From IMG/VR virus record IMGVR_UViG_3300023049_000054, positions 1-29,808 of that record: a DNA stretch of 29,808 nt. One strand, 5' to 3'. Shown piece after piece: positions 5,374 through 25,165 of this stretch. The translations under genes were made by a program, and so were the position numbers. Under the pieces are notes generated by a model. It was given only the letters and a program-made list of their open reading frames with translations, was not told where the DNA came from and made no database searches. This DNA is from a virus. Position 1 is the first letter of the stretch. Each line of letters starts with the position of its first letter.

Positions 5374-8300
5374 ATGGCACTTGTATCACCAGGAGTAGAA
5401 GTTAGCGTTATAGACGAATCGTTCTACACGCCGGCAGAACCAGGCACTGTACCTATGATATTTGTTGCTACTGCCCAGAACAAAATCAACGGCAGTGGAA
5501 CAGGAACAGCACTAGGAACGCTAGCAGCTAACGCAAATCAGCCTCGACTGTTAACGTCACAAAGAGAGTTAGCAGAGATTTTCGGCGACCCTATTTTTTA
5601 TACGGACGCAAACAACAACCCTATTCATGGCGGCGAGCTAAACGAATATGGTTTGCAAGCAGCATACTCTCTGCTTGGCGTTAGTAACAGAGTTTATGTT
5701 GCTAGAGCAGATATAGACCTAGGAGCACTCCAGCCTCAAGCAGATGCGCCAGGAGCTAACCCAGATGACGGAACAAACTGGTTAGACACTCAGAGCACCC
5801 AATGGGGTATTTTTGAGTGGAACGGAGACACTGGAACAGGCGGCCAAACATTTAGTGTTCAAACTCCGATTGTTATTACAGACAGCACTAGATTAGTAGG
5901 AGGCCAAGCAACCGGCATTCCGAAAGCAAGTGTAGGTTCAATTGGACAATATGCCGTACGAGCTACTACATCTAATATTACTATGTACTACAAGAACAAG
6001 TCAGGAAACTGGGTAGTAGTAGGAAGTCCAGACTGGAAAATAAGCTGGCCTACTGTTACTGCTGATTTTCCAGACAGTACACTAGGAGACAGCAACGACA
6101 GCTTCACAGTTATAGTTGACCCAGCAGGCGCCGCAACTAGTTACACAATTAATGAAGCTTCTGACTTAGATTCTCAAGTAACTGAGTTTAACAACGTGCT
6201 GGTGTCTACCGGTATTGCGGCACAGAACGTAAATGGAAGATTTGCTATTTTCAACGACGGTTCTGTATCTGATGACTTTGCTCTAGGAGGTAATACTGGA
6301 TTGCTGGGCAAAGTAGGACTAGCATCTGGAACATTTTCAACGCCTAATTGCCAGTTAAGTCCACACACAGTAGTACCAGAGTTTCATACAGATCTAGACA
6401 ATAGACCAACTGGATCGGTTTGGGTTAAAACAACTGAACCAAACCTTGGTGCTCGCTGGAGACTCTTGCGTTGGAACGGCAATGTTGAACTGTTTGACCC
6501 AGTAGACGCCCCTCTTTATAGCAGCAACGCAGCAGCATTGTTTTCACTAGACAGAGCAGGCGGTGGCAGAAACCTACCAGTAGGTGAGATTTTTGTTAGA
6601 TACAACTCAGAAAATTCTGACCCTGATCAAGCACAGTTTAGGATTTACAACAGAGCAGCGCCAGGCAGCACACAGATAGTTAGTGCTCAAATAGGACAAA
6701 CTGGCGTTTCATCAGGTTCATACAGTTTTGATATCTACGAAACAGTAGTAGGATCACAGACGTTGTCAACAGCAACTACAATTACAGTAACATCGGTAGG
6801 AAACACCGGTGACGCTGATTTAATTGCAGGTGCAATTAACAGTGAAAGCTTTAATCATGTTGTGGCATCTGTTGACGCTCGAAATAGAGTAGTAATTGAG
6901 CACACAGCAGGCGGCGACATTAGGCTTACTGACACAGACGGTCTATTAGGTAATATCGGATTTATTCCGTTCAATCCACTGAGCGTAAACACTACTACTA
7001 AGAACCTGTACGCTTCGGTAGGAAGCAATGTTGGAGATCTGGTAGCAAGCAACTGGAGAGAAGCAGACTTTGCAGCACAAGCAGACGCTCCGCAGAACCT
7101 AGCTCTACACGGCGAACTTTGGTACAGCTCTATTATAGACGAAGTAGACATTATGGTTCATGACGGGTCAACATGGAGAGGATACAAAAACTATCTCGCC
7201 AACACTAACCCAGCTGGACCAATAGTAAGTGCTACAGAACCAAATCCACTAAACGGACAATCAGACGGCACTGCACTAGAAGACGGCGATATCTGGATCG
7301 ATACCTCGGATATTGAAGAATATCCAGTAATACGTCGTTGGAGTAATACTGCGCAACGATTTGTATTGTTAGACAAAACAGATCAAACAACTAGTGACGG
7401 TGTGTTGTTTGCAGATGCTCGCTGGAACACCAGCGGTGAGAACTCCGATACACAAGGAACAATCGAAGCACTGCTAACAAGTGACTTTGTTGATCCCGAC
7501 GCACCTGATCCAGCATTGTACCCAAGAGGCATGATACTGTTTAACTTGCGTAGAAGTGGGTTTAACGTAAAGCGGTTTGAGCGTAACTATATCAATACTA
7601 CAGAAGATAACATTCGTTTTAATGATGAGAGCATGACCGATTATGCTGTAAATCGTTGGGTTACAGAATCTGGCAACCAGAACGACGGCGCCGGAAGTTT
7701 CGGAAGACACGCACAGCGTAAAGTTGTTGTACAGTCGCTACAGTCAATGGTTAATAGCAACGAACAGATTCGCGACGACGAGTCACGCTTGTTTAACGTT
7801 ATGGCAACACCAAACTACCCAGAACTAATTGGCGAGATGATTACGTTGAACTTTGACAGAGGACAAAGTGCGTTTATCATAGGTGATAGTCCTATGAGAC
7901 TTGCTCCTGATGCTACATCACTAAACGAGTGGGCAACTAACACTCGACTGGCTGTAGAAGATAACATCAACGGACTTGTTAGTTTCGACACTAACCTAGG
8001 AGTATACTACCCATCAGGCTTTACTAGTGACAACGCTGGTAACAATGTAGTTGTTCCAGCAAGCCATATGGCACTTCGCACTATAGCGTTAAGCGACCAG
8101 GTAAGTTATCCTTGGTTTGCACCAGCAGGTACTCGACGAGGCGGCGTAACAAACGCAACTGCATCTGGATACATTGATTCAGAAGGCGAATTTGTAAGTG
8201 TGTCGTTGAACCAAGGACAGCGTGACACGTTATATGCTAACAACATTAACCCAATTACGTTCTTGTCAGGCAGCGGTCTTGTAGTGTACGGACAAAAAAC

Positions 8301-8643
8301 CCGCGCAAGAAATGCATCGTCGCTTGATAGAATTAACGTTGCTAGGCTTGTAATATACTTACGCTCGCAGTTAAATAAACTAGCGAAGCCTTATGTGTTC
8401 GAACCAAACGACAGGATTACTCGAAATGAGCTCAAAGGAGCCGCTGAGAGTCTGATGCTGGAGCTAGTAGGACAAAGAGCGTTATTTGATTATATTGTAT
8501 TATGTGATGATACTAACAACACACCAGCAAGAATTGATCGTAACGAACTTTACCTAGACATTGCAATTGAACCAGTTAAAGCTGTTGAATTTATCTTCAT
8601 TCCGCTAAGACTTAAGAACACAGGAGAAATTGCAAGCCTTTAA
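5374..8643 (+). CDS. 18: Contractile tail sheath protein (T4 gp18-like)
   Basis: The N-terminus MALVSPGVEVSVIDES is the classic sheath start (T4: MTLLSPGIELKE), the strand that links sheath subunits. Around residues 60-115 come the LTSQRELAEIFGDP and AAYSLLGVSNRVYVARA blocks typical of the family. The C-terminal 300 residues (ITFLSGSGLVVYGQKTRA, RINVARLVIYLRSQLNKL, then EPVKAVEFIFI) are the conserved inner domain that contacts the tube and contracts. At 1089 residues it is much longer than T4 gp18 (659). The excess lies in the middle (roughly 120-650), expected to form domains on the outer surface. A late promoter and AAAGGAG precede it, and a strong terminator follows at 8655. Confidence 0.95.
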   Translation: MALVSPGVEVSVIDESFYTPAEPGTVPMIFVATAQNKINGSGTGTALGTLAANANQPRLLTSQRELAEIFGDPIFYTDANNNPIHGGELNEYGLQAAYSLLGVSNRVYVARADIDLGALQPQADAPGANPDDGTNWLDTQSTQWGIFEWNGDTGTGGQTFSVQTPIVITDSTRLVGGQATGIPKASVGSIGQYAVRATTSNITMYYKNKSGNWVVVGSPDWKISWPTVTADFPDSTLGDSNDSFTVIVDPAGAATSYTINEASDLDSQVTEFNNVLVSTGIAAQNVNGRFAIFNDGSVSDDFALGGNTGLLGKVGLASGTFSTPNCQLSPHTVVPEFHTDLDNRPTGSVWVKTTEPNLGARWRLLRWNGNVELFDPVDAPLYSSNAAALFSLDRAGGGRNLPVGEIFVRYNSENSDPDQAQFRIYNRAAPGSTQIVSAQIGQTGVSSGSYSFDIYETVVGSQTLSTATTITVTSVGNTGDADLIAGAINSESFNHVVASVDARNRVVIEHTAGGDIRLTDTDGLLGNIGFIPFNPLSVNTTTKNLYASVGSNVGDLVASNWREADFAAQADAPQNLALHGELWYSSIIDEVDIMVHDGSTWRGYKNYLANTNPAGPIVSATEPNPLNGQSDGTALEDGDIWIDTSDIEEYPVIRRWSNTAQRFVLLDKTDQTTSDGVLFADARWNTSGENSDTQGTIEALLTSDFVDPDAPDPALYPRGMILFNLRRSGFNVKRFERNYINTTEDNIRFNDESMTDYAVNRWVTESGNQNDGAGSFGRHAQRKVVVQSLQSMVNSNEQIRDDESRLFNVMATPNYPELIGEMITLNFDRGQSAFIIGDSPMRLAPDATSLNEWATNTRLAVEDNINGLVSFDTNLGVYYPSGFTSDNAGNNVVVPASHMALRTIALSDQVSYPWFAPAGTRRGGVTNATASGYIDSEGEFVSVSLNQGQRDTLYANNINPITFLSGSGLVVYGQKTRARNASSLDRINVARLVIYLRSQLNKLAKPYVFEPNDRITRNELKGAAESLMLELVGQRALFDYIVLCDDTNNTPARIDRNELYLDIAIEPVKAVEFIFIPLRLKNTGEIASL

Positions 8644-8730: not shown

Positions 8731-10296
8731 ATGATAGTTTGTGCAGTTTGCAACGAATCTTTTAAGAACATGATAACCTGGCGTCACCTTAAACATCACA
8801 ATTTAACATCCTCTGAATATAAAGAAAAATACGGTCCTGTAGTAAGTGAAGAGTTTCGTAAACTAAAGAGCAGCCAGTCATCCGGAGCAAGCAACCCTAA
8901 TTTCGGAAAAACTCATTCGCTTAAAGCAAAGAAAAAGATATCTGATGCAAACAAAGGCAAAACACCTTCTAACTACAACTCTGCAATGACAGACCAACAA
9001 AAGGAAAAGCTGTCAACAAAGGCAAAGTTGAGAAATGAAGAATGGCATAAATCAGGAACACATCCTCTTGTGGGCAGTAAACATACTGCCCAAACCAAAG
9101 AAAAGATAGCCCAAGCTAGAAAATATCAGATTATTACCAACGAACAAGTACAGAAGGCGTTGGCTACAAAAAAAGCCAACGGCACGGATTTGGCTTTTTT
9201 CCGGGGAAAAGTTCATTCAGAAGAATCTAAACAACAAATAGCAAAAACTTCTAAGTTAACAGCAGCAAGAAAACAGAAAGAACACGTCTTGCGACTAGAA
9301 AATATTCTTGAAGATTACAATTATCAGTTGATTGAATACACGTCTACTTTTACAACTTTAAAATGTACATTGTGCGGAACAGTTTTTTCAAGGACGTCGC
9401 AGTATTTGTCTAAGTCAAAAATTCGTAACGACTTCTGCTCAGCATGTTATCCTAAAACTGTAAGTACCAGTAAACTAGAAAATCAGCTAGCTGATTTTGT
9501 ATCTGCATTTGTAGACATTGAACGTAATAATAGAACTATTATATCGCCCCTGGAGTTAGACGTAGTAATACCCGGCCATAACCTTGCTATAGAATTCAAC
9601 GGGCTGTACTGGCACTCAACAGAGTTCAAAGAAGCCAAGTATCATCTTAGGAAATCCGAATTATGTGCAGAACAAGGAATTAAGCTAATTCATGTTTTCG
9701 AAGACGAATGGGTTAACACCCCAGAAATTGTTAAGTCGAGATTATTGAATCAGCTAGGCAAGTGTAGTCGCAAGGTGTATGCCAGGAAAACAAAGATTAG
9801 AGAACTAACTGCAAGAGACGCAAATCAGTTCCTTAAGATAAACCACATTCAGTCTACGGGCAGGTCGAACGTGCGACTGGGGCTATACCACAACGACACC
9901 TTAGTTTCTGTAATGACTTTCTTAAAAGGTGATGTTAGCAAACGAGTCGTAGGGTGGGAGCTGAACAGATTCTGCACCACATTGGATACAACTGTAGTAG
10001 GCGGAGCTAACAAGCTATTTAACTACTTTGTTAATACATACTCTCCTGAGCAAGTAACTTCTTTTGCGGATCGCCGATGGAGCAACTCAAGCGCATTTTA
10101 TTCACTTTTAGGATTTACTCTAGATGGTGTTACTCCAGTAAACTATTGGTATTTTGCACCAGGAGAAACGCAACGTAAGCATCGTTATTCTTTCAAAACA
10201 AATAAATATAATACTGAGAAAGAACAAATAGACTTCTACAACTTGAAGACTATATACGACTGCGGTAGTTATCGTTTTTTATGGTGTGCAAAATAA
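8731..10296 (+). CDS. Free-standing homing endonuclease (Vsr-like/EDxHD type with NUMOD3 repeats)
   Basis: A 521-residue protein. It starts with a CAVC...H zinc finger (C4, C7, H19-H23). Three NUMOD3-type DNA-binding units follow at about 55-77 (NPNFGKTHS...), 111-131 and 156-175, then a second zinc ribbon at C212/C215 and C236/C239. The nuclease core at about 274-330 has LELDVVIPGHNLAIEFNGLY, then WHS, and LIHVFEDEW. This is the Vsr-like fold of the EDxHD family (I-Bth0305I type). The C-terminal 170 residues (from ARKTKIREL) are a domain often attached to these enzymes. It sits between sheath and tube genes, typical of intergenic homing. It is preceded by a terminator, a lone TATAAT at 8700, and the ribosome site AAAGGA. 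Confidence 0.85.
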   Translation: MIVCAVCNESFKNMITWRHLKHHNLTSSEYKEKYGPVVSEEFRKLKSSQSSGASNPNFGKTHSLKAKKKISDANKGKTPSNYNSAMTDQQKEKLSTKAKLRNEEWHKSGTHPLVGSKHTAQTKEKIAQARKYQIITNEQVQKALATKKANGTDLAFFRGKVHSEESKQQIAKTSKLTAARKQKEHVLRLENILEDYNYQLIEYTSTFTTLKCTLCGTVFSRTSQYLSKSKIRNDFCSACYPKTVSTSKLENQLADFVSAFVDIERNNRTIISPLELDVVIPGHNLAIEFNGLYWHSTEFKEAKYHLRKSELCAEQGIKLIHVFEDEWVNTPEIVKSRLLNQLGKCSRKVYARKTKIRELTARDANQFLKINHIQSTGRSNVRLGLYHNDTLVSVMTFLKGDVSKRVVGWELNRFCTTLDTTVVGGANKLFNYFVNTYSPEQVTSFADRRWSNSSAFYSLLGFTLDGVTPVNYWYFAPGETQRKHRYSFKTNKYNTEKEQIDFYNLKTIYDCGSYRFLWCAK

Positions 10297-14242: not shown

Positions 14243-15448
14243 ATGGACAGCAGCACACAAAAACTAAAAGACATGATTCAGCGTATGACAGAGCTGGATA
14301 CTCCAGAAGAAAAAAAACAACAGTTAGACGAAATGGCTAGCATGAATATTTCTATGTCAGGCGAGACAGCAGACGACGTTGCAAGTCTTATGAAGATTAT
14401 GCAAAACGCTGGCATGAATGATGCAGCACCGATGCCTCAAGAAACAATGCCGGCACGTCAAGATATGGAACGGTTGTCTAGTATTGTCAGCGACCCTGCG
14501 CCAACGGCATTTGGTGGCGATACAGGGGCTCAAACGACTGTTAAAGGACTGCCACCGGGACAACACGAAGGTGCTAAGCAAGTTTCCGAAGAGTGGTCCA
14601 CAGAGAACGCCAAAGAGCTCGAATCATTGCATAACATGGTTCGGAAAACAATGAAAGGCGGAGCCGACGCTGTTAGAGCCAAGCGCGGGTTTGAAGATCA
14701 CGTTAATAAGACCTTTACAGGGGTTGACAGCTCACGCCTTCTTATGAAGCTGAAAAAAATGGACGACCGCGGCCAGGTAAAAATTCTGCACGACTTGGTA
14801 CGTGACAGCCAACGCCAGAATACTAACCCAGCCCCTTTGACTTACGAAAATCTAGAAGAGTGGTCCGCTCAAGATGCCGATATATTACGAAGGCTTCACG
14901 GACTAATACAAAGGTCAGCAGCTGGTAACAGCAGAGACGGCGCAGAATTCGAAGATTACATTGATAATAATTTTCCTAATGTTAACTCAGAAGAGTTAAG
15001 AGCAAAACTGGAAAAAATGGACGACAACCAGCAATTTGAAACTCTGCACGATATGTTAAGATTCGAGTATCAAAATGATGCAGAAGACGATTACACAGAT
15101 AGGTCAATGCGCAGTGGCGAGATGGGTCTAGAAGGGTACGATAACGAGCCTGATGAAGATTATCAAGACACTAATTACATGACTAAAGATCTGTCTGGCG
15201 GACTCAACAGACAAAAGAAGTCTTACAAAGATGCAGAAGACGGTGATAATCCGATGGCTGTTAAAGAAGGCGAGTCGCAAAAACGTTATGAGTCTATTAA
15301 AGATAGTTTGTATGCACAGCTAACAGAAAAGAAGAAAGCTGACAAAGACTACGACAAAGATGGCAAGATCGAAACGCCTAAGGCTGAGTACCAAGGTTCG
15401 AAGATTCGTGCTGCTAAGAAAAAAGGCAACATGAAGAAAGACGAGTAA
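14243..15448 (+). CDS. Acidic phage protein with a duplicated helical module
   Basis: A 401-residue, highly charged, Met-rich protein. An N-terminal block (MNISMSGETADDVASLMKIM, about 34-53) matches a motif common in marine myophage proteins. The middle holds two copies of one module: residues 116-190 and 205-276 share EEWS, LH(N/G), a FED(H/Y) helix, then KMDD and LHD(M/L). The tail (DKDYDKDGKIETPKAEY, about 363-379, then basic residues) resembles a calcium-loop-like segment repeated in many marine phage proteins. Function is unknown. Position in the head-packaging unit and composition suggest an internal head or scaffold-associated role, which is only inference. Confidence 0.65.
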   Translation: MDSSTQKLKDMIQRMTELDTPEEKKQQLDEMASMNISMSGETADDVASLMKIMQNAGMNDAAPMPQETMPARQDMERLSSIVSDPAPTAFGGDTGAQTTVKGLPPGQHEGAKQVSEEWSTENAKELESLHNMVRKTMKGGADAVRAKRGFEDHVNKTFTGVDSSRLLMKLKKMDDRGQVKILHDLVRDSQRQNTNPAPLTYENLEEWSAQDADILRRLHGLIQRSAAGNSRDGAEFEDYIDNNFPNVNSEELRAKLEKMDDNQQFETLHDMLRFEYQNDAEDDYTDRSMRSGEMGLEGYDNEPDEDYQDTNYMTKDLSGGLNRQKKSYKDAEDGDNPMAVKEGESQKRYESIKDSLYAQLTEKKKADKDYDKDGKIETPKAEYQGSKIRAAKKKGNMKKDE

Positions 15449-15455
15449 ATTACAT

Positions 15456-16274
15456 ATGATAAAGTCGTTAGACGGAGTAGTTACTAAGAATGCTGATCAA
15501 CAGGAAACCTACACTGAAACTCAAATAAAAAAGTTTCTTAAATGCGCAGATCCTGTTGATGGCTTTCTGTATTTCATCGAGCAATTTGTAAAGTATGTAA
15601 ACCCAGCTACTGGACCAGCTACTGGGGTACAGAACCTTAGACTTTACGATTTTCAAAAAGATCTACTAAAGAATATACACAACGAAAAAATTAGCGTAAA
15701 CATGCTACCCCGTCAGATGGGCAAGACGTTGTGCGCAGCGGCATACATTGCTTGGCGTTTGTTATTTTTAGAACACGAGAACATTGTCATTGCCAGTCAT
15801 CGGCTAATGGCTTCAGAACAAATACTCGAGACTGTTAGGCTCATTATAGAAAGATGCCCTAGCATGTTGAATCCTGGATTCAGTGTAAGCAACAAACGAT
15901 CACTTATACTTACTAACGGATCAAAGCTGCTAGCAAAAACTCTAGAGCCAGACAATCTTAGAGGTATGTCAATTAGTTTCTTGTTCGTTGACGAAGCAGG
16001 AGTTATGTCAGAGCACAAGATGCATGAATTCTTATCGTCAGCTTATCCTTCGATAGTTGGATCAAGAGGTAAGATTGCATTTACTTCTACAACAGGCGAA
16101 AAAGATTCCGGCTTTAACCTTCTATGGCAAAACGCACAAAATAAAAACTCTGGCTTTGCTAAGTTTAAAGCAGAATGGTTTGACCACCCTGAAAGAGACG
16201 AACAATGGAAAGATACTATTGTCAATCAAGTGGGCGAAGAAGTATTCAGAAAGGAGTACGAGTGCGAAATCTAA
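15456..16274 (+). CDS. Stand-alone terminase ATPase-domain paralogue (truncated gp17-like)
   Basis: A 272-residue protein that aligns with the extein sequence of the neighbouring gp17 from its first residues (SLDGV(V/L)TK, QQETYT) to the end of the ATPase domain. Walker A is PRQMGKT (85-91), Walker B is FLFVDE (175-180), and the coupling motif is TSTTG (210-214). All key ATPase residues are present, with no intein. It ends KEYECEI, two residues after the Cys that matches the third intein site in gp17 (REYG|CEF), so the whole nuclease domain is absent. Either it is a remnant of duplication or a kept accessory ATPase; intact motifs and frame favour the second. The ribosome site before ATG 15456 is weak. 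Confidence 0.85.
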   Translation: MIKSLDGVVTKNADQQETYTETQIKKFLKCADPVDGFLYFIEQFVKYVNPATGPATGVQNLRLYDFQKDLLKNIHNEKISVNMLPRQMGKTLCAAAYIAWRLLFLEHENIVIASHRLMASEQILETVRLIIERCPSMLNPGFSVSNKRSLILTNGSKLLAKTLEPDNLRGMSISFLFVDEAGVMSEHKMHEFLSSAYPSIVGSRGKIAFTSTTGEKDSGFNLLWQNAQNKNSGFAKFKAEWFDHPERDEQWKDTIVNQVGEEVFRKEYECEI

Positions 16275-16289
16275 GCATTCATTAATAAT

Positions 16290-17912
16290 ATGTCCAAGTC
16301 ATTAGACGGAGTACTTACAAAGAAAGCCAATCAACAAGAAACCTACACAGAGAAACAAATAGAACAACTTGTTAAATGTATGGACCCTGATAACGGCTAT
16401 TTGTACTTTGCTAAGAACTTTGCTTACATTCAGCACCCTGTAAGAGGCAAGCTGTTATTCGAACCATACGAATATCAAGAACGCCTAATGGCAAGTTATC
16501 ACAACTTCCGGTTTAACGTAAACATGCTGCCTAGGCAAACAGGCAAAGCCCTAGCGCTCGACACACCAATACCAACAAATTCCGGGTGGACTACAATGGG
16601 CGATATTAAAGTAGGTGATAAAATACTCGGACCTAACGGGAAGGAAGCCTCTGTTACATTTGCCACTCCGGTAATGTACAATCATACTTGTTATCAGGTC
16701 GAATTTGATAACGGAGAGAAGATTACAGCAGATGCAGAACATCTGTGGAACATTACATTAAGATCCTGGAATACTGGAGTAAAAACCTGGACCACGCAAC
16801 AGATTAAAGATTACATTGAATCAAAAAACACCTGTGTGTACGTAGAAGCAGCAAGCCCGATACAATTAGACGAAATAGAACTGCCTATAGATCCTTACGT
16901 GTTGGGTTTTTTGTTAGGTGACGGTGAGAGTGCCGCAGCACGTTATACCCAGTGTGTTGCTGATAATAAGGAAATTGTACCAGAGATATTAAGTAGAGGT
17001 GTTGACATCTCAAGATCTTATTCTAACGGGACTAGTGTTCAAAGTGAAAATAGGACTATTTACGGGTTACGCAGTAAACTAAACGAAAATGATTTGTTAA
17101 GAAATAAACATGTACCCGCGAAATATCTAAGAGCTAGTACTAATCAACGTTTAGAACTTTTGCAAGGTCTTATGGACTCAGCCGGCTCGATAGATAAAAG
17201 GTCCGGGCGATGTGAATTTTATCAAAAAAACTACAGACTAATAGAACAAGTACAAGACCTATTGTCATCATTAGGTATAAAAAATAGATGCGACCATAAG
17301 GTAATAAAAGGACAAACGTATTATACTATTGGATTTGCTACAACGAAATATAAAGTATTCAAGTTAACAAGGAAGTCTCAGTATCAAGATAACTGTAAAA
17401 GTCATCAAAAAAATACTCGACATTACATAAAGCGTATTTCGGCCACTGACTCAGTTCCAGTAAGGTGTATTCAAGTTGACACTACTGATCATTTGTTCCT
17501 CTGTGGAAAATCAATGATTCCAACTCATAACACCACCTGTGCTGCCGTATACCTTGCATGGTTTGCTATGTTCCATCCTGATCAAACTATTCTAATTGCA
17601 GCTCACAAGTACACAGGCGCCCAAGAAATTATGCAGCGAATTCGCTACATTTACGAATTGTGTCCTGACCATATACGTGCTGGTGTTGTCAATTACAACA
17701 AAGGTAGTATAGAATTCGAAAACGGTTCGCGTGTTGTAAGCTCAACTACTACAGGCAACACAGGCCGCGGCATGAGTATCTCGCTGCTATACTGCCTTGA
17801 CGGTGATACTACTAGAGTGCGAGTTCGTAATAAAAAAACACTAGAAGAGGAAGACGTGACATTAAAAGAACTTTATGTCAGGCTTCTCGATCCAAGAATT
17901 GTTCTCGCATGA
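16290..17912 (+). CDS. 17: Terminase large subunit gp17, part 1, with one full intein and an N-terminal split-intein half
   Basis: A 540-residue ORF. Residues 1-86 are extein ending at PRQTGK, the first half of Walker A. Residues 87-414 are a full intein. Residues 415-501 are extein again (TTCAAVYLAWFAMF... to RGMSISLLY). From Cys502 (CLDGDTT) to 540 is the N-half of a split intein, ending KELYVRLL plus seven residues. Splicing of the full intein rejoins GK with TT; the intein-free paralogue upstream reads GKTLCAAA at this place, which fixes the borders. Walker B is cut just before Asp-Glu, so this part alone cannot be an active ATPase. The stop overlaps the next ORF (ATGA). The ribosome site before ATG 16290 is weak. 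Confidence 0.92.
   Translation: MSKSLDGVLTKKANQQETYTEKQIEQLVKCMDPDNGYLYFAKNFAYIQHPVRGKLLFEPYEYQERLMASYHNFRFNVNMLPRQTGKALALDTPIPTNSGWTTMGDIKVGDKILGPNGKEASVTFATPVMYNHTCYQVEFDNGEKITADAEHLWNITLRSWNTGVKTWTTQQIKDYIESKNTCVYVEAASPIQLDEIELPIDPYVLGFLLGDGESAAARYTQCVADNKEIVPEILSRGVDISRSYSNGTSVQSENRTIYGLRSKLNENDLLRNKHVPAKYLRASTNQRLELLQGLMDSAGSIDKRSGRCEFYQKNYRLIEQVQDLLSSLGIKNRCDHKVIKGQTYYTIGFATTKYKVFKLTRKSQYQDNCKSHQKNTRHYIKRISATDSVPVRCIQVDTTDHLFLCGKSMIPTHNTTCAAVYLAWFAMFHPDQTILIAAHKYTGAQEIMQRIRYIYELCPDHIRAGVVNYNKGSIEFENGSRVVSSTTTGNTGRGMSISLLYCLDGDTTRVRVRNKKTLEEEDVTLKELYVRLLDPRIVLA
16548..17531 (+). mobile_element. Intein 1: class 3-type intein with LAGLIDADG endonuclease domain
   Basis: 328 residues inserted between Lys and Thr of Walker A. 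The first residue is Ala (ALALDTPIPT), so the usual Cys/Ser nucleophile is missing. The class 3 signature is present: Trp two residues after the block B His (AEHLW, W153 of the ORF), Cys at the block F position that is normally Asp (VRCIQVD, C393), and Thr before the final His-Asn (PTHN, T412). The next extein residue is Thr. The endonuclease domain has motifs VLGFLLGDG (204-212) and LLQGLMDSAG (290-299). In the second, the expected catalytic Asp is Ala298, so cleavage activity is doubtful while splicing residues look intact. Confidence 0.85.
17793..17912 (+). other. Split intein 2, N-terminal half (IntN2)
   Basis: Codes for 39 residues from CLDGDTT to the stop of part 1. It holds block A of a standard Cys1 intein and ends with an ELYVRLL helix like the LYKRLA end of the 25-residue N-half of the AceL-TerL intein (from memory). 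Block B and everything after it are on the next gene, 261 bases downstream. Confidence 0.85.
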
Positions 17913-18196
17913 CAAGTTTGCCTTTGATGCATGGATATAAAAATAGTGTTAGTCCGTTATTGATAGGAAGTGTAAGTAACCTACAGATGTTGCCGTGGCA
18001 AGACAACGTATCAAAGCACAGCAAGTCAGGAATATTGTTAGAAGAATTATTAATTCGTGCAAATTACACCAGCGATCAGTCGATCAAAGAATTTACTACT
18101 TTCTTAGAAATGATCAATAACGACATAAGAAGTGGCACTGTAGTCAGCGGCGCTGCACTAATAGAGAGGTTCAATGAATCAAAGTTTCGCACCTAA
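17909..18196 (+). CDS. Hypothetical small ORF inside the fractured terminase gene
   Basis: A 95-residue ORF in the gap between the two halves of split intein 2. I do not recognise it. It overlaps the stop of part 1 as ATGA and runs 23 bases into part 2. There are no zinc-finger, GIY-YIG, HNH, LAGLIDADG or Vsr-like residues, so it is not a visible endonuclease, although split-intein gaps often hold one. The last third (FTTFLEMINNDIRSG, then GAALIERFNESKF) looks like ordinary helical coding sequence. No ribosome site precedes its ATG, so translation would depend on coupling. It may be a real small gene, the remnant of a lost endonuclease, or simply a spacer that stayed open. Confidence 0.4.
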   Translation: MTSLPLMHGYKNSVSPLLIGSVSNLQMLPWQDNVSKHSKSGILLEELLIRANYTSDQSIKEFTTFLEMINNDIRSGTVVSGAALIERFNESKFRT

Positions 18197-18509
18197 CACA
18201 GAATACGAAATTCTTACACCTAACGGCTGGGAAGACTTCGAAGGAATTTTCTTAAACGAAAACGCCAATAAGGATTCTCGCAAGATTACATTTGACGATA
18301 ATAGCTTTGTTATAGCAACACTCGACCATCGATTCTATATTAATAATTCCGAAGTTAAAGTAAAAGACCTTGTGTTAGGTAATAAACTAGACTCTGAAGA
18401 CAATAGTAAGATAATAGTGTCACTAGAGGATGTAGAATTAGAGGACACTTACGAGATATTTAACGCAGAAAATCACGTAATACTTGCAAATAAGATTAAT
18501 TCGCATCAA
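18174..18509 (+). other. Split intein 2, C-terminal half (IntC2)
   Basis: 112 residues carrying blocks N2 to G: EILTPNGWEDFEGI (12-25), block B TLDH (49-52), block F DTYEIFNAENHVI, and the end KINSHQ before Cys+1. The last residue is Gln instead of Asn, a rare but known variant. No endonuclease domain. Confidence 0.85.
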
Positions 18510-18911
18510 TGCGACGAGTTCGCATTTGTACAACCTGGGATAGCAGACGAGTTTTGGACGTCGATATCACCTACGCTAGCAACAGGTGGTAGAGCAATTA
18601 TAACATCTACTCCAAACTCGGACGAAGACACGTTTGCGACAATCTGGAAAGACGCCGAGAAAAAGTTTGACGAACACGGCAATGAAACTGAATTAGGAAC
18701 GAATGGCTTCCATTCGTTTACAGTAGCCTGGGACGAGCACCCAGACAGAAACGACGAATGGAAGGTTGCTGAAATAGGTCGTATTGGTGAAGAACGCTTC
18801 CGTCGTGAGTATGGTTGTGTGACACGCAATACTATGATAACTTTGCAAGACGAAAACGGAAATGTATTTGACTTAGAAATAGGCAACTTGTACAATACCA
18901 TAGATGAATAA
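18174..18911 (+). CDS. 17: Terminase large subunit gp17, part 2, flanked by split-intein halves
   Basis: A 245-residue ORF with three sections. Residues 1-112 are the C-half of split intein 2, ending INSHQ. Residues 113-214 are extein: CDEFAFV completes Walker B (LLY|CDE), and AIITSTPNS (141-149) is the coupling motif, followed by WDEHPDRNDEWK and GEERFRREYG. Residues 215-245 (CVTRNTM... to NTIDE) are the N-half of split intein 3. The extein aligns with residues about 178-268 of the paralogue upstream. The ATG is five bases after GAGAGG. This IntC-extein-IntN order means the middle piece must be joined at both ends by trans-splicing. Confidence 0.9.
   Translation: MNQSFAPNTEYEILTPNGWEDFEGIFLNENANKDSRKITFDDNSFVIATLDHRFYINNSEVKVKDLVLGNKLDSEDNSKIIVSLEDVELEDTYEIFNAENHVILANKINSHQCDEFAFVQPGIADEFWTSISPTLATGGRAIITSTPNSDEDTFATIWKDAEKKFDEHGNETELGTNGFHSFTVAWDEHPDRNDEWKVAEIGRIGEERFRREYGCVTRNTMITLQDENGNVFDLEIGNLYNTIDE
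18816..18911 (+). other. Split intein 3, N-terminal half (IntN3)
   Basis: 31 residues from CVTRNTMITL to the stop of part 2, block A only. It resembles IntN2 in the ending (IGNLYNTI beside KELYVRLL) and is close in size to the 25-residue AceL-TerL N-half. Confidence 0.85.
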
Positions 18912-18987
18912 TAGCCCAAGAACAACTTAACGGAGAATACTGTGAGAGCTGCAATTTATATAGAGGTGGTAACAGAGTATTAAAAAA

Positions 18988-19329
18988 ATGACAAAGACAT
19001 TCAAAGAAAATTCGAAGAATTACAAAGTACTAACTCCTGATGGATTTCAGTCCTTTGCAGGTGTAGCATTGATGGGCGTAAAACCTACACTGCGCCTGGA
19101 CTTTGAGGGAGGAGCGTATGTAGAATGTACATACGATCATAAGTTCTACGTAACACTAACTGAACATAAAGAAGCAAGTCAATTAAATGTTGGCGACGCT
19201 GTGGTTACTTCAGAAGGCGACGTTAAGCTGTTGTCTAAGTCAGACACTGGAATGTCCGAACCGGTATATGATTTAATCGAAGTAGAAAACGGCCACCGGT
19301 ATTTTACTAACAAGGTACTAAGCTCTAAC
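18988..19329 (+). other. Split intein 3, C-terminal half (IntC3)
   Basis: 114 residues: YKVLTPDGFQSFAGV (12-26), block B TYDH (48-51), block F VYDLIEVENGHRYFTN (93-108), end VLSSN before Cys+1. The penultimate residue is Ser where most inteins have His. Confidence 0.85.
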
Positions 19330-20079
19330 TGCGAATTCTTAGTATTTGACGAAACGTTAATTAATTCCATCAAACTATCAACTATGGAGGGGATGACTCC
19401 GACCCTTAACATGGGGCAAACCCGGTGGTATAAGAAGCCTGAGGCAGGTTATACCTATGCTGTTGCACTTGACCCTAGTATGGGCACTGGTGGCGACAAT
19501 GCTGCTATACAGGTTATAGAATTACCTAGTTACAAACAAGTAGCAGAATGGCAGCACAATCAAACGTCAATTCCTGGACAAATTCGCGTACTTAAAGATA
19601 TCAACAATTATATACAAGAGACTATTAAGCAACCAAACTCTATTTACTGGAGTGTAGAAAATAACGGTATTGGCGAAGCTGCATTATTAGTAATACAAGA
19701 TTTTGGTGAAGAGAATATTCCCGGCCTGTTTATATCAGAACCGATTCGCAAAGGCCACGTTAGAAAATTCCGTAAAGGGTTTAACACTACCCACAGTGCT
19801 AAGATTACAGCATGCAGTAGACTTAAAACAATGGTAGAAAACGACAAAATGAAAATTTACTCCAAACCGTTAATATCAGAACTCAAAGGGTTCATTGCAA
19901 CTGGTTCTAGTTACCAAGCAAAATCCGGAGTCTCAGACGATCTAATATCTGCAATTTTGTTAACTATACGAATGATGGCGATACTCAAAGATTGGGACCC
20001 TAAGATTTACAATACATTTACGCAGGCTGATGATGATGACTATGATCCGCCGATGCCAATCTTTATGACACGGAACTGA
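18988..20079 (+). CDS. 17: Terminase large subunit gp17, part 3, nuclease domain behind a split-intein half
   Basis: A 363-residue ORF. Residues 1-114 are the C-half of split intein 3. From Cys115 (CEFLVFDETLIN) comes the C-terminal extein of 249 residues with the RNase H-like nuclease of gp17: ALDPSMGTGGD (Asp162), VENNGIGEA (Glu224) and GVSDDLISA (Asp317/318), matching the T4 triad Asp401/Glu458/Asp542. It cuts concatemers to make the ends of packaged DNA. Fully spliced gp17 would have 86+87+102+249 = 524 residues. A 76-base gap separates it from part 2, and no good ribosome site is near its ATG, which follows an A run. The stop codon TGA begins the next late promoter motif. Confidence 0.92.
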   Translation: MTKTFKENSKNYKVLTPDGFQSFAGVALMGVKPTLRLDFEGGAYVECTYDHKFYVTLTEHKEASQLNVGDAVVTSEGDVKLLSKSDTGMSEPVYDLIEVENGHRYFTNKVLSSNCEFLVFDETLINSIKLSTMEGMTPTLNMGQTRWYKKPEAGYTYAVALDPSMGTGGDNAAIQVIELPSYKQVAEWQHNQTSIPGQIRVLKDINNYIQETIKQPNSIYWSVENNGIGEAALLVIQDFGEENIPGLFISEPIRKGHVRKFRKGFNTTHSAKITACSRLKTMVENDKMKIYSKPLISELKGFIATGSSYQAKSGVSDDLISAILLTIRMMAILKDWDPKIYNTFTQADDDDYDPPMPIFMTRN

Positions 20080-24448: not shown

Positions 24449-25165
24449 ACTACATTTGTGCTTTAATCGACCCAAGATCGGACTTACCTTTTACATCGGC
24501 AAGGGACTAATCGTAAACTCTAGACACCTAGACCATTTTAAGGAAAACGAGTCTCGTACCTTAAATAAACACAAATTTTATAAAATAAGATTTTTACAGA
24601 ATCAAGGATACGTAGTTCCTGTAATAGTGCTGTTAGATAATATATTAGACGAACACGAAGCTTACAATAAAGAAACCGAGTTCGTAAAGTTTTACGGAAG
24701 AAAAACATCGACAAAAACGGAATACTATCTAATATATGCCTTGACAACAGACCCCCTAATCATAAAGGCAGAAAACAATCTTTAGAACACAAACAGAAGA
24801 GAATAGAAAGTTATAAGCGTACTGTTAAGACTCACGGCAAGAAGATGCCCGAGTATTATAAAAAAGAATTATCCGAAAGAATGAAAGGTCCAAAAAATCC
24901 GTTTTTTGGGAGAAAGCATACTAAAGAATTTAAGGCTGTTCATTCTAAAAGGATGAAAGGCAACAAAAACAACGGCAAGGTTTATAAATTCATTGATTCT
25001 GATAATAAAGAATACATCGTAGAAGGATCGTTTTATGAATTTTGTAAAGTGCACAATCTAGCAATTTCAACAATGGAAAAAAATCTATACAACGGAACAA
25101 TTAGTAAAGTAGGAGCCTGTAAAGGGTGGAAAGTTGTTAAGTTGTCTGAGAGTACTTTTCTATAA
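24445..25165 (+). pseudogene. GIY-YIG homing endonuclease, broken by two frameshifts
   Basis: The reading starts MYYICALIDPRSDLPF after a perfect AGGAGG, then must slip by -1 at a T4 run (24489-24492) to continue as FYIGKG, the second half of the GIY-YIG motif. It must slip again by -1 at an A5 run (24713-24717) to pass from KTSTK into GILSNICLDN. The third frame then runs to TAA at 25163-25165. Restored, the protein is 240 residues: a GIY-YIG nuclease, NUMOD3 units (NHKGRKQSLEHKQKR near 24749, NPFFGRKHTKEFK near 24896), and a NUMOD1-like end (KVYKFID... to GCKGWKV-type). Both breaks fit loss of one base from a homopolymer, so recent decay or sequencing error are both possible. More A/T-rich than its neighbours, as expected for an inserted element. 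Confidence 0.8.

Follow-up and report, generated by a model that had tools for sequence, protein, structure and literature searches.

The packaging motors of tailed phages are treated as homomeric rings of the large terminase protein, TerL. In the established model of T4 gp17, the hinge and the nuclease domain are needed for translocation and for cutting of DNA. An ATPase-only paralogue of TerL, 226-252 amino acids in length, is found directly upstream of terL in RaK2-like phages. It is carried by CBB (CBB_274), 121Q (gene 3), GAP32 (GAP32_268), XbC2 (XbC2_270), Kaldavass, BF (BF_0272), RaK2 (RaK2_00110), XaC1 (XaC1_353), Hallingskeid, and KP13-7; Sharanji has a copy identical to 121Q gene 3, and Salmonella phage Munch has none. 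The gene is also present in 11 of 11 RaK2-like loci from IMG/VR, with some copies of just 178-190 amino acids. The Walker A lysine has been lost and the Walker B glutamate replaced in all ten of the cultured copies examined, and the homology of the most diverged ones (121Q, RaK2, and Hallingskeid) is based on position and weak matches.

A related gene is known from Sinorhizobium phage phiM12, in which gp17.2 (AB690_gp090) lies between gp16 and gp17. In its passage on CBB_274, Buttimer 2017 (PMC5259590) identifies the protein as a truncated large terminase, describes this as unusual and as common to the RaK2-like phages, phiM12, and phiN3, and proposes no function. A literature search found no functional study of a truncated TerL encoded beside terL, only mention in a genome paper, and a search for 'gp17.2' found nothing. 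The gene analyzed here, called the companion below, belongs by its sequence to this known, uncharacterised kind of truncated TerL gene adjoining terL. What is new is a set of lineages in which the motifs are intact and the end point is fixed, along with a cassette of about 1.1 kb that was exchanged recently.

The ATPase-only ORF and its predicted structure

The companion corresponds to the ATPase domain of TerL. The window, the whole stretch of DNA that was analyzed, is 29,808 nucleotides of a virus (IMG/VR record IMGVR_UViG_3300023049_000054). The companion is an ORF of 272 amino acids at 15456..16274 on the plus strand, as are all features of the companion, the cassette, and gp17 given below. 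It matches Terminase_6N in Pfam (E=1.8e-18) and T4 gp17 in the PDB (E=2.9e-25). Walker A is RQMGKT (residues 86-91, 15711..15728), corresponding to R162, Q163, K166, and T167 of T4, and Walker B is FLFVDE (residues 175-180, 15978..15995), corresponding to D255 and E256. The coupling motif is TSTT (residues 210-213, 16083..16094), a form peculiar to the window copy; three IMG/VR contigs with near-identical copies, L005-L007, have TSTP. Comparison with the DNA of these contigs also revealed a 12-bp tandem duplication private to the window copy (15603..15614, PATG repeated). Pfam, PDB, and alignment thus agree with the initial annotation, made from the letters of the window, which had described a gp17 paralogue with intact Walker A, Walker B, and coupling motifs. 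It had also placed the stop two residues after the Cys at the intein 3 site, and alignment with spliced gp17 bears this out. Cys270 aligns with the +1 Cys of gp17 intein 3 and is followed by two residues and the stop (16263..16274), an end point common to the related copies and located at the ATPase domain boundary. Identity to the spliced window gp17 is high over the first ~33 residues and roughly 35-40% thereafter. Comparison of the sequence and Pfam searches found no intein, no nuclease sequence, and no Terminase_6C match in the ORF, as had been claimed. At the sequence level, the homology E-values rule out a chance resemblance to TerL, as do five other contigs in which the arrangement is the same.

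The predicted structure is that of the TerL ATPase domain. An AlphaFold2 model made from a 17-row alignment has a pLDDT of 85.5 and a pTM of 0.85, and its best structural match is T4 gp17 (Foldseek 6.7e-22). Against the T4 gp17 ATPase domain it has a Z score of 27.8 and a deviation of 2.8 A over 254 residues, and residues 9-272 superpose on T4 gp17 77-356. The model also matches the BFVD prediction for CBB_274 (TM 0.79 by CBB_274 length, 18% identity). Because the end of the model aligns with T4 residue 356, the stop is predicted to fall where the fold of the ATPase domain ends, ahead of the hinge and nuclease. Compared with a functional TerL, the companion has the P-loop ATPase domain with its catalytic residues and lacks the C-terminal RNase H-like nuclease domain. 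It has the fold and catalytic residues in common with T4 gp17, but T4 gp17 also has the hinge and the nuclease domain, and without both of these the companion is an incomplete TerL. No T4-type late promoter, TATAAATA, was found near the companion; the sole match in the window, at 25161, is no more than expected by chance.

The companion resembles the known truncated terminases in position, while its motifs are better conserved than those of the RaK2-like phages. Like the window companion, the RaK2-like genes (PHROG 5989 and PHROG 27915) are ATPase-only and lie immediately upstream of terL, and they mostly end within about 13 residues after the position of the window's Cys. However, they have lost the Walker residues and are mostly 226-252 amino acids long, whereas the window and its relatives have kept all of the motifs. 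PHROG 5989 is the best family for the companions of the window (5.8e-40) and of two further contigs, L010 (2.2e-32) and L018 (1.3e-33), as well as for CBB_274, BF_0272, XaC1_353, and phiM12 gp17.2; the L018 companion scores nearly equally with PHROG 2. Degenerate Walker motifs mark the RaK2-like subgroup and do not define the kind, since the motifs of the window (RQMGKT, VDE) and of phiM12 gp17.2 are intact. The phiM12 protein has only 196 amino acids and stops just past the coupling motif, so that, unlike the window companion, it is missing the last part of the ATPase domain. The arrangement is also found in L189 (IMGVR 3300048580_000233), an uncultured phage with a Phosso-type TerL and the only one of 80 Phosso-type loci with such a gene. 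Its ORF has 279 amino acids with intact RQSGKT and CDE motifs, ends in DYNCRI (Cys plus two residues), and like the window companion is directly upstream of an intein-bearing TerL. Its closest match is the TerL beside it (40.6%), ahead of the window companion (26.7%). In all of these phages the companion directly precedes terL and is encoded on the same strand.

Companion lineages and the exchanged cassette

The companion is found in several divergent lineages of related phages. The same gene pair was sought in relatives of the window, as the initial annotation had proposed, and a companion directly upstream of gp17 was found in five more IMG/VR contigs: L005, L006, L007, L010, and L018. Amino acid identity to the window companion is 97-98% for L005-L007, 43% for L010, and 47% for L018. 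The DNA of L005-L007 is about 99-99.8% identical, making them in effect one species, and there are therefore three divergent companion lineages: the window with L005-L007, L010, and L018. All companions of this window clade end in EYEC plus two residues. The companion is missing in L011 and L014-L017, whose gp17 is about 90% identical, and none of the remaining loci among the 80 compared has it, those starting inside or just before gp17 being uninformative; L008 and L009 have weak matches of at most 30% identity. Inteins 1-3 are present in gp17 of the window, intein 2 alone in L005 and L006, and none in L007, L010, and L018. Since intein content varies while the companion stays, presence of the companion is independent of the inteins.

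The companion evolves rapidly but appears to be constrained at its active site. Alleles from different lineages are 43-47% identical, beside gp17 proteins that are 92-94% identical. The comparison of replacement with silent change was partly informative: dN between lineages is 0.51-0.57 with all frames open, and synonymous sites are saturated. For the same pairs the gp17 ATPase domain has a dN of 0.05-0.06, so divergence of the companion protein is about tenfold that of the adjacent TerL ATPase domain (dN 0.51 vs 0.05). The ten catalytic and coupling positions are nevertheless all invariant in the three lineages, compared to 82 of 258 columns overall (hypergeometric p=7e-6), and it is this invariance amid a high dN that points to constraint. 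The estimate of selection is limited by the sample, in which close copies of the companion differ by 2-3 substitutions. Absence from close relatives together with decay of the Walker residues had been named as evidence against a kept gene. In the window clade some close relatives have the companion and some do not, and the motifs are intact; in the RaK2-like relatives the Walker motifs have decayed.

DNA comparison indicates that the companion moved recently between phages as part of a cassette, by recombination in the flanks. The cassette (15251..16375, ~1.1 kb) spans the companion, along with the 3' end of the gene before it and 86 bp from the start of gp17, and it is near-identical to the DNA of L005-L007. 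Identity is 99.6-99.8% in the companion ORF and falls to 66% in the left flank and 72-84% in the right flank. Across 15251-16375 the window and L006 differ by three substitutions and one 12-bp insertion. For this pair, identity is 66% directly to the left of the block and 74-84% directly to the right, and the gp17 exteins are 80% identical with a dS of about 1.8. Co-conversion from the homing of intein 1 was considered as the source of the exchange tract and was rejected because the stretch that separates the tract from intein 1 (16376-16547) is divergent.

The start of the companion and the start of gp17 form a direct repeat of 121 bp with ~75% identity (15454..15574 and 16288..16408). The repeat is confined to the lineage of the window and L005-L007, and the gp17-like first 33 residues of the companion probably arose by gene conversion in this lineage alone. 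Such a repeat could make it possible for the companion to be deleted. Among relatives, the region that joins the upstream gene (14243-15448) to gp17 (16290) varies, with 7 to 1712 bp between the last match and the upstream gene and with other small ORFs there in L019 and L053. The region thus resembles a site at which accessory genes insert. Elsewhere in the window, upstream of the tail tube genes, an ORF of 521 amino acids (8731-10296) that contains NUMOD3 repeats and weakly matches REase_MTES_1575 is a putative homing endonuclease.

The adjoining gp17 and its inteins

The gp17 of the window starts 15 nt downstream of the companion on the same strand. It comes in three separately encoded pieces, which together carry a full LAGLIDADG intein and two split ones. 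The closest cultured gp17 proteins are those of jumbo phages, namely PA5oct (54%), Phosso, Atu_ph07, and the RaK2-like phages. The N-terminal piece (16290..17912) includes the full intein 1 at Walker A (16548-17531) and the N-half of split intein 2 (17793-17909), inserted before the Walker B CDE. The middle piece (18174..18911) consists of the C-half of intein 2, extein residues 174-276, and the N-half of intein 3. The C-terminal piece (18988..20079) has the C-half of intein 3 (18988-19329), inserted ahead of the Cys at the end of the ATPase domain, followed by the nuclease domain (Terminase_6C).

The inteins and their associated ORFs vary among relatives. Intein 1 begins with Ala rather than Cys or Ser, is followed by Thr at +1, and has an internal Cys in RCIQVD, as in class 3 inteins. 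A similar intein is found at the same Walker A site in L189 (1771-4338). The TerL of Agrobacterium phage Atu_ph07 (L105, 1983-4174) is encoded by two genes split at Walker A, the site of intein 1, and a split intein is likely there. In L006 the two halves of split intein 2 are separated by an ORF of 307 amino acids (7466-8389) that is likely a free-standing homing nuclease, and a 95-amino-acid ORF in the window (17909..18196, also plus strand) is the C-terminal remnant of it. L007 lacks intein 2 though it is 99.8% identical to L006, and it represents a natural empty site. In L053 (5714-8756) a split intein breaks gp17 at the position that intein 3 has in the window, a fractured-gene arrangement with a free-standing ORF of 346 amino acids (DUF7487, 6635-7675) between the halves. 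Split intein 3 of the window is the same without the ORF, and its halves are separated by a 76-bp gap (18912-18987).

Origin and possible roles of the companion

Phylogenetic analysis does not favour a recent local duplication of the neighbouring gp17 as the source of the companion, because the window companions cluster as a separate clade (99/99) that excludes the window TerL proteins. The RaK2-like companions fall on one side of a branch (94/97). A single origin for all companions is not rejected (AU p=0.33). Forcing the companions to group with their own TerL proteins was worse by 13 log units (AU p=0.067), and by 8.7 (p=0.24) with a second data set, which falls short of a firm rejection. 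Long branches dominate the trees and limit all of these tests. The end point common to the three window-clade lineages and L189 was either inherited from a common ancestor or imposed by the same constraint at the domain boundary.

Overall, the companion is best read as a TerL ATPase paralogue, without nuclease or hinge, that is retained by selection as a partner of TerL at the packaging vertex; we give this reading a probability of about 0.55. The initial annotation had suggested a kept accessory ATPase. Retention is supported by the syntenic relatives, by catalytic residues kept through ~55% protein divergence, and by recurrence of the gene pair in RaK2-like phages, phiM12, and L189, whereas action in the motor is something that we infer. 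Once translated, the companion would fold as the TerL N-domain, and in the window clade it would bind ATP. It may dock at the packaging vertex, as a member of the TerL ring or on the portal or TerL. Because it has no nuclease domain and no hinge, it would be able neither to cut DNA nor to drive the stroke, and for the same reason it may be a regulatory or 'blank' subunit that lowers the number of nuclease domains per motor. Alternatively, it may tune initiation, pausing, or cutting while a very large genome is packaged. T4 motors tolerate inactive subunits, with which they can assemble and package DNA, more slowly and with more pausing (PMC8589836), so a mixed ring is physically possible. Since the RaK2-like copies have lost the Walker lysine and the Walker B glutamate, the role shared by all companions is probably not hydrolysis but a structural or regulatory one; in the window clade, hydrolysis would be an extra that has been kept. 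It is a tentative extension of this reading that some large-genome phages have a two-component motor, with a companion that is active and cassette-swapped in the window clade and a pseudo-ATPase in the RaK2-like phages. Several observations count against a motor role. Close relatives whose gp17 is ~90% identical (L011, L014-L017) can dispense with the companion, and Salmonella phage Munch has none. Ten-fold faster divergence would not be expected of a part that docks tightly on TerL, and cassette exchange also fits a conflict gene.

Patchy presence at one locus, divergent alleles beside similar gp17 genes, and a swapped cassette are indeed typical of conflict genes. A conflict factor could be a decoy for host sensors of the TerL fold (Avs/AVAST) or a dominant-negative protein acting against co-infecting relatives, and we regard this as unlikely but worth weighing. 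Avs1-Avs4 sense TerL, portal, or another phage protein (PMC12931631), and the companion model matches the Avs3-bound TerL (8dgc, Z 20.5), as every TerL would. However, the companion invariably adjoins terL, it occurs in 11 of 11 RaK2-like loci although different hosts would not share one sensor, PADLOC gave matches only at noise level, and no TerL decoy was found in a literature search. It is less probable again that the companion is a functionless, decaying partial duplicate of gp17. Fast divergence and the many relatives without the gene would fit decay, as would the lost Walker motifs and the copies of just 178-190 residues in RaK2-like phages. The window clade, on the other hand, has no frame break and has kept the ten catalytic positions through a dN of about 0.5, the same end is found in three lineages and L189, and every RaK2-like locus sampled has the gene. 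A dispensable 0.8-kb gene would be expected to vanish quickly from a compact phage genome.

Two further proposals are related to the position and the end of the gene. The companion occupies the T4-like position of gp16 beside gp17, and no small terminase was recognised among the window proteins tested, so it might substitute for or partner a small terminase, choosing or gripping DNA at initiation and not forming part of the ring. This is quite improbable, as phiM12 carries both gp16 and gp17.2, and the predicted fold is that of a TerL ATPase, unlike the coiled coil of gp16. The least probable proposal, put forward in the initial annotation and abandoned here, is that the ORF is a scar of intein homing or recombination at the gp17 intein 3 site. 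It drew on the stop two residues past the Cys that follows the insertion point, and L053 has its split intein with the 346-amino-acid ORF at that exact site. Yet L053 itself has no companion, and the same end is found where gp17 is free of inteins (L007, L010, and L018) and in the RaK2-like phages. An ATPase domain boundary, where the stop is predicted to lie, suffices to explain an intein and a stop at one conserved spot, and recombination acted on the locus instead through exchange of the ~1.1-kb cassette between phages.

Retention of the companion as a TerL partner would have consequences for the view of packaging in large phages. If true, a recurrent, positionally fixed ATPase-only paralogue of TerL would mean that some large phages have a heteromeric motor or a TerL-derived regulator. 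The intact and degenerate companions provide a natural series that bears on whether hydrolysis matters, and this kind of gene occurs in phages of E. coli K-12 (Sharanji) and of S. meliloti (phiM12).
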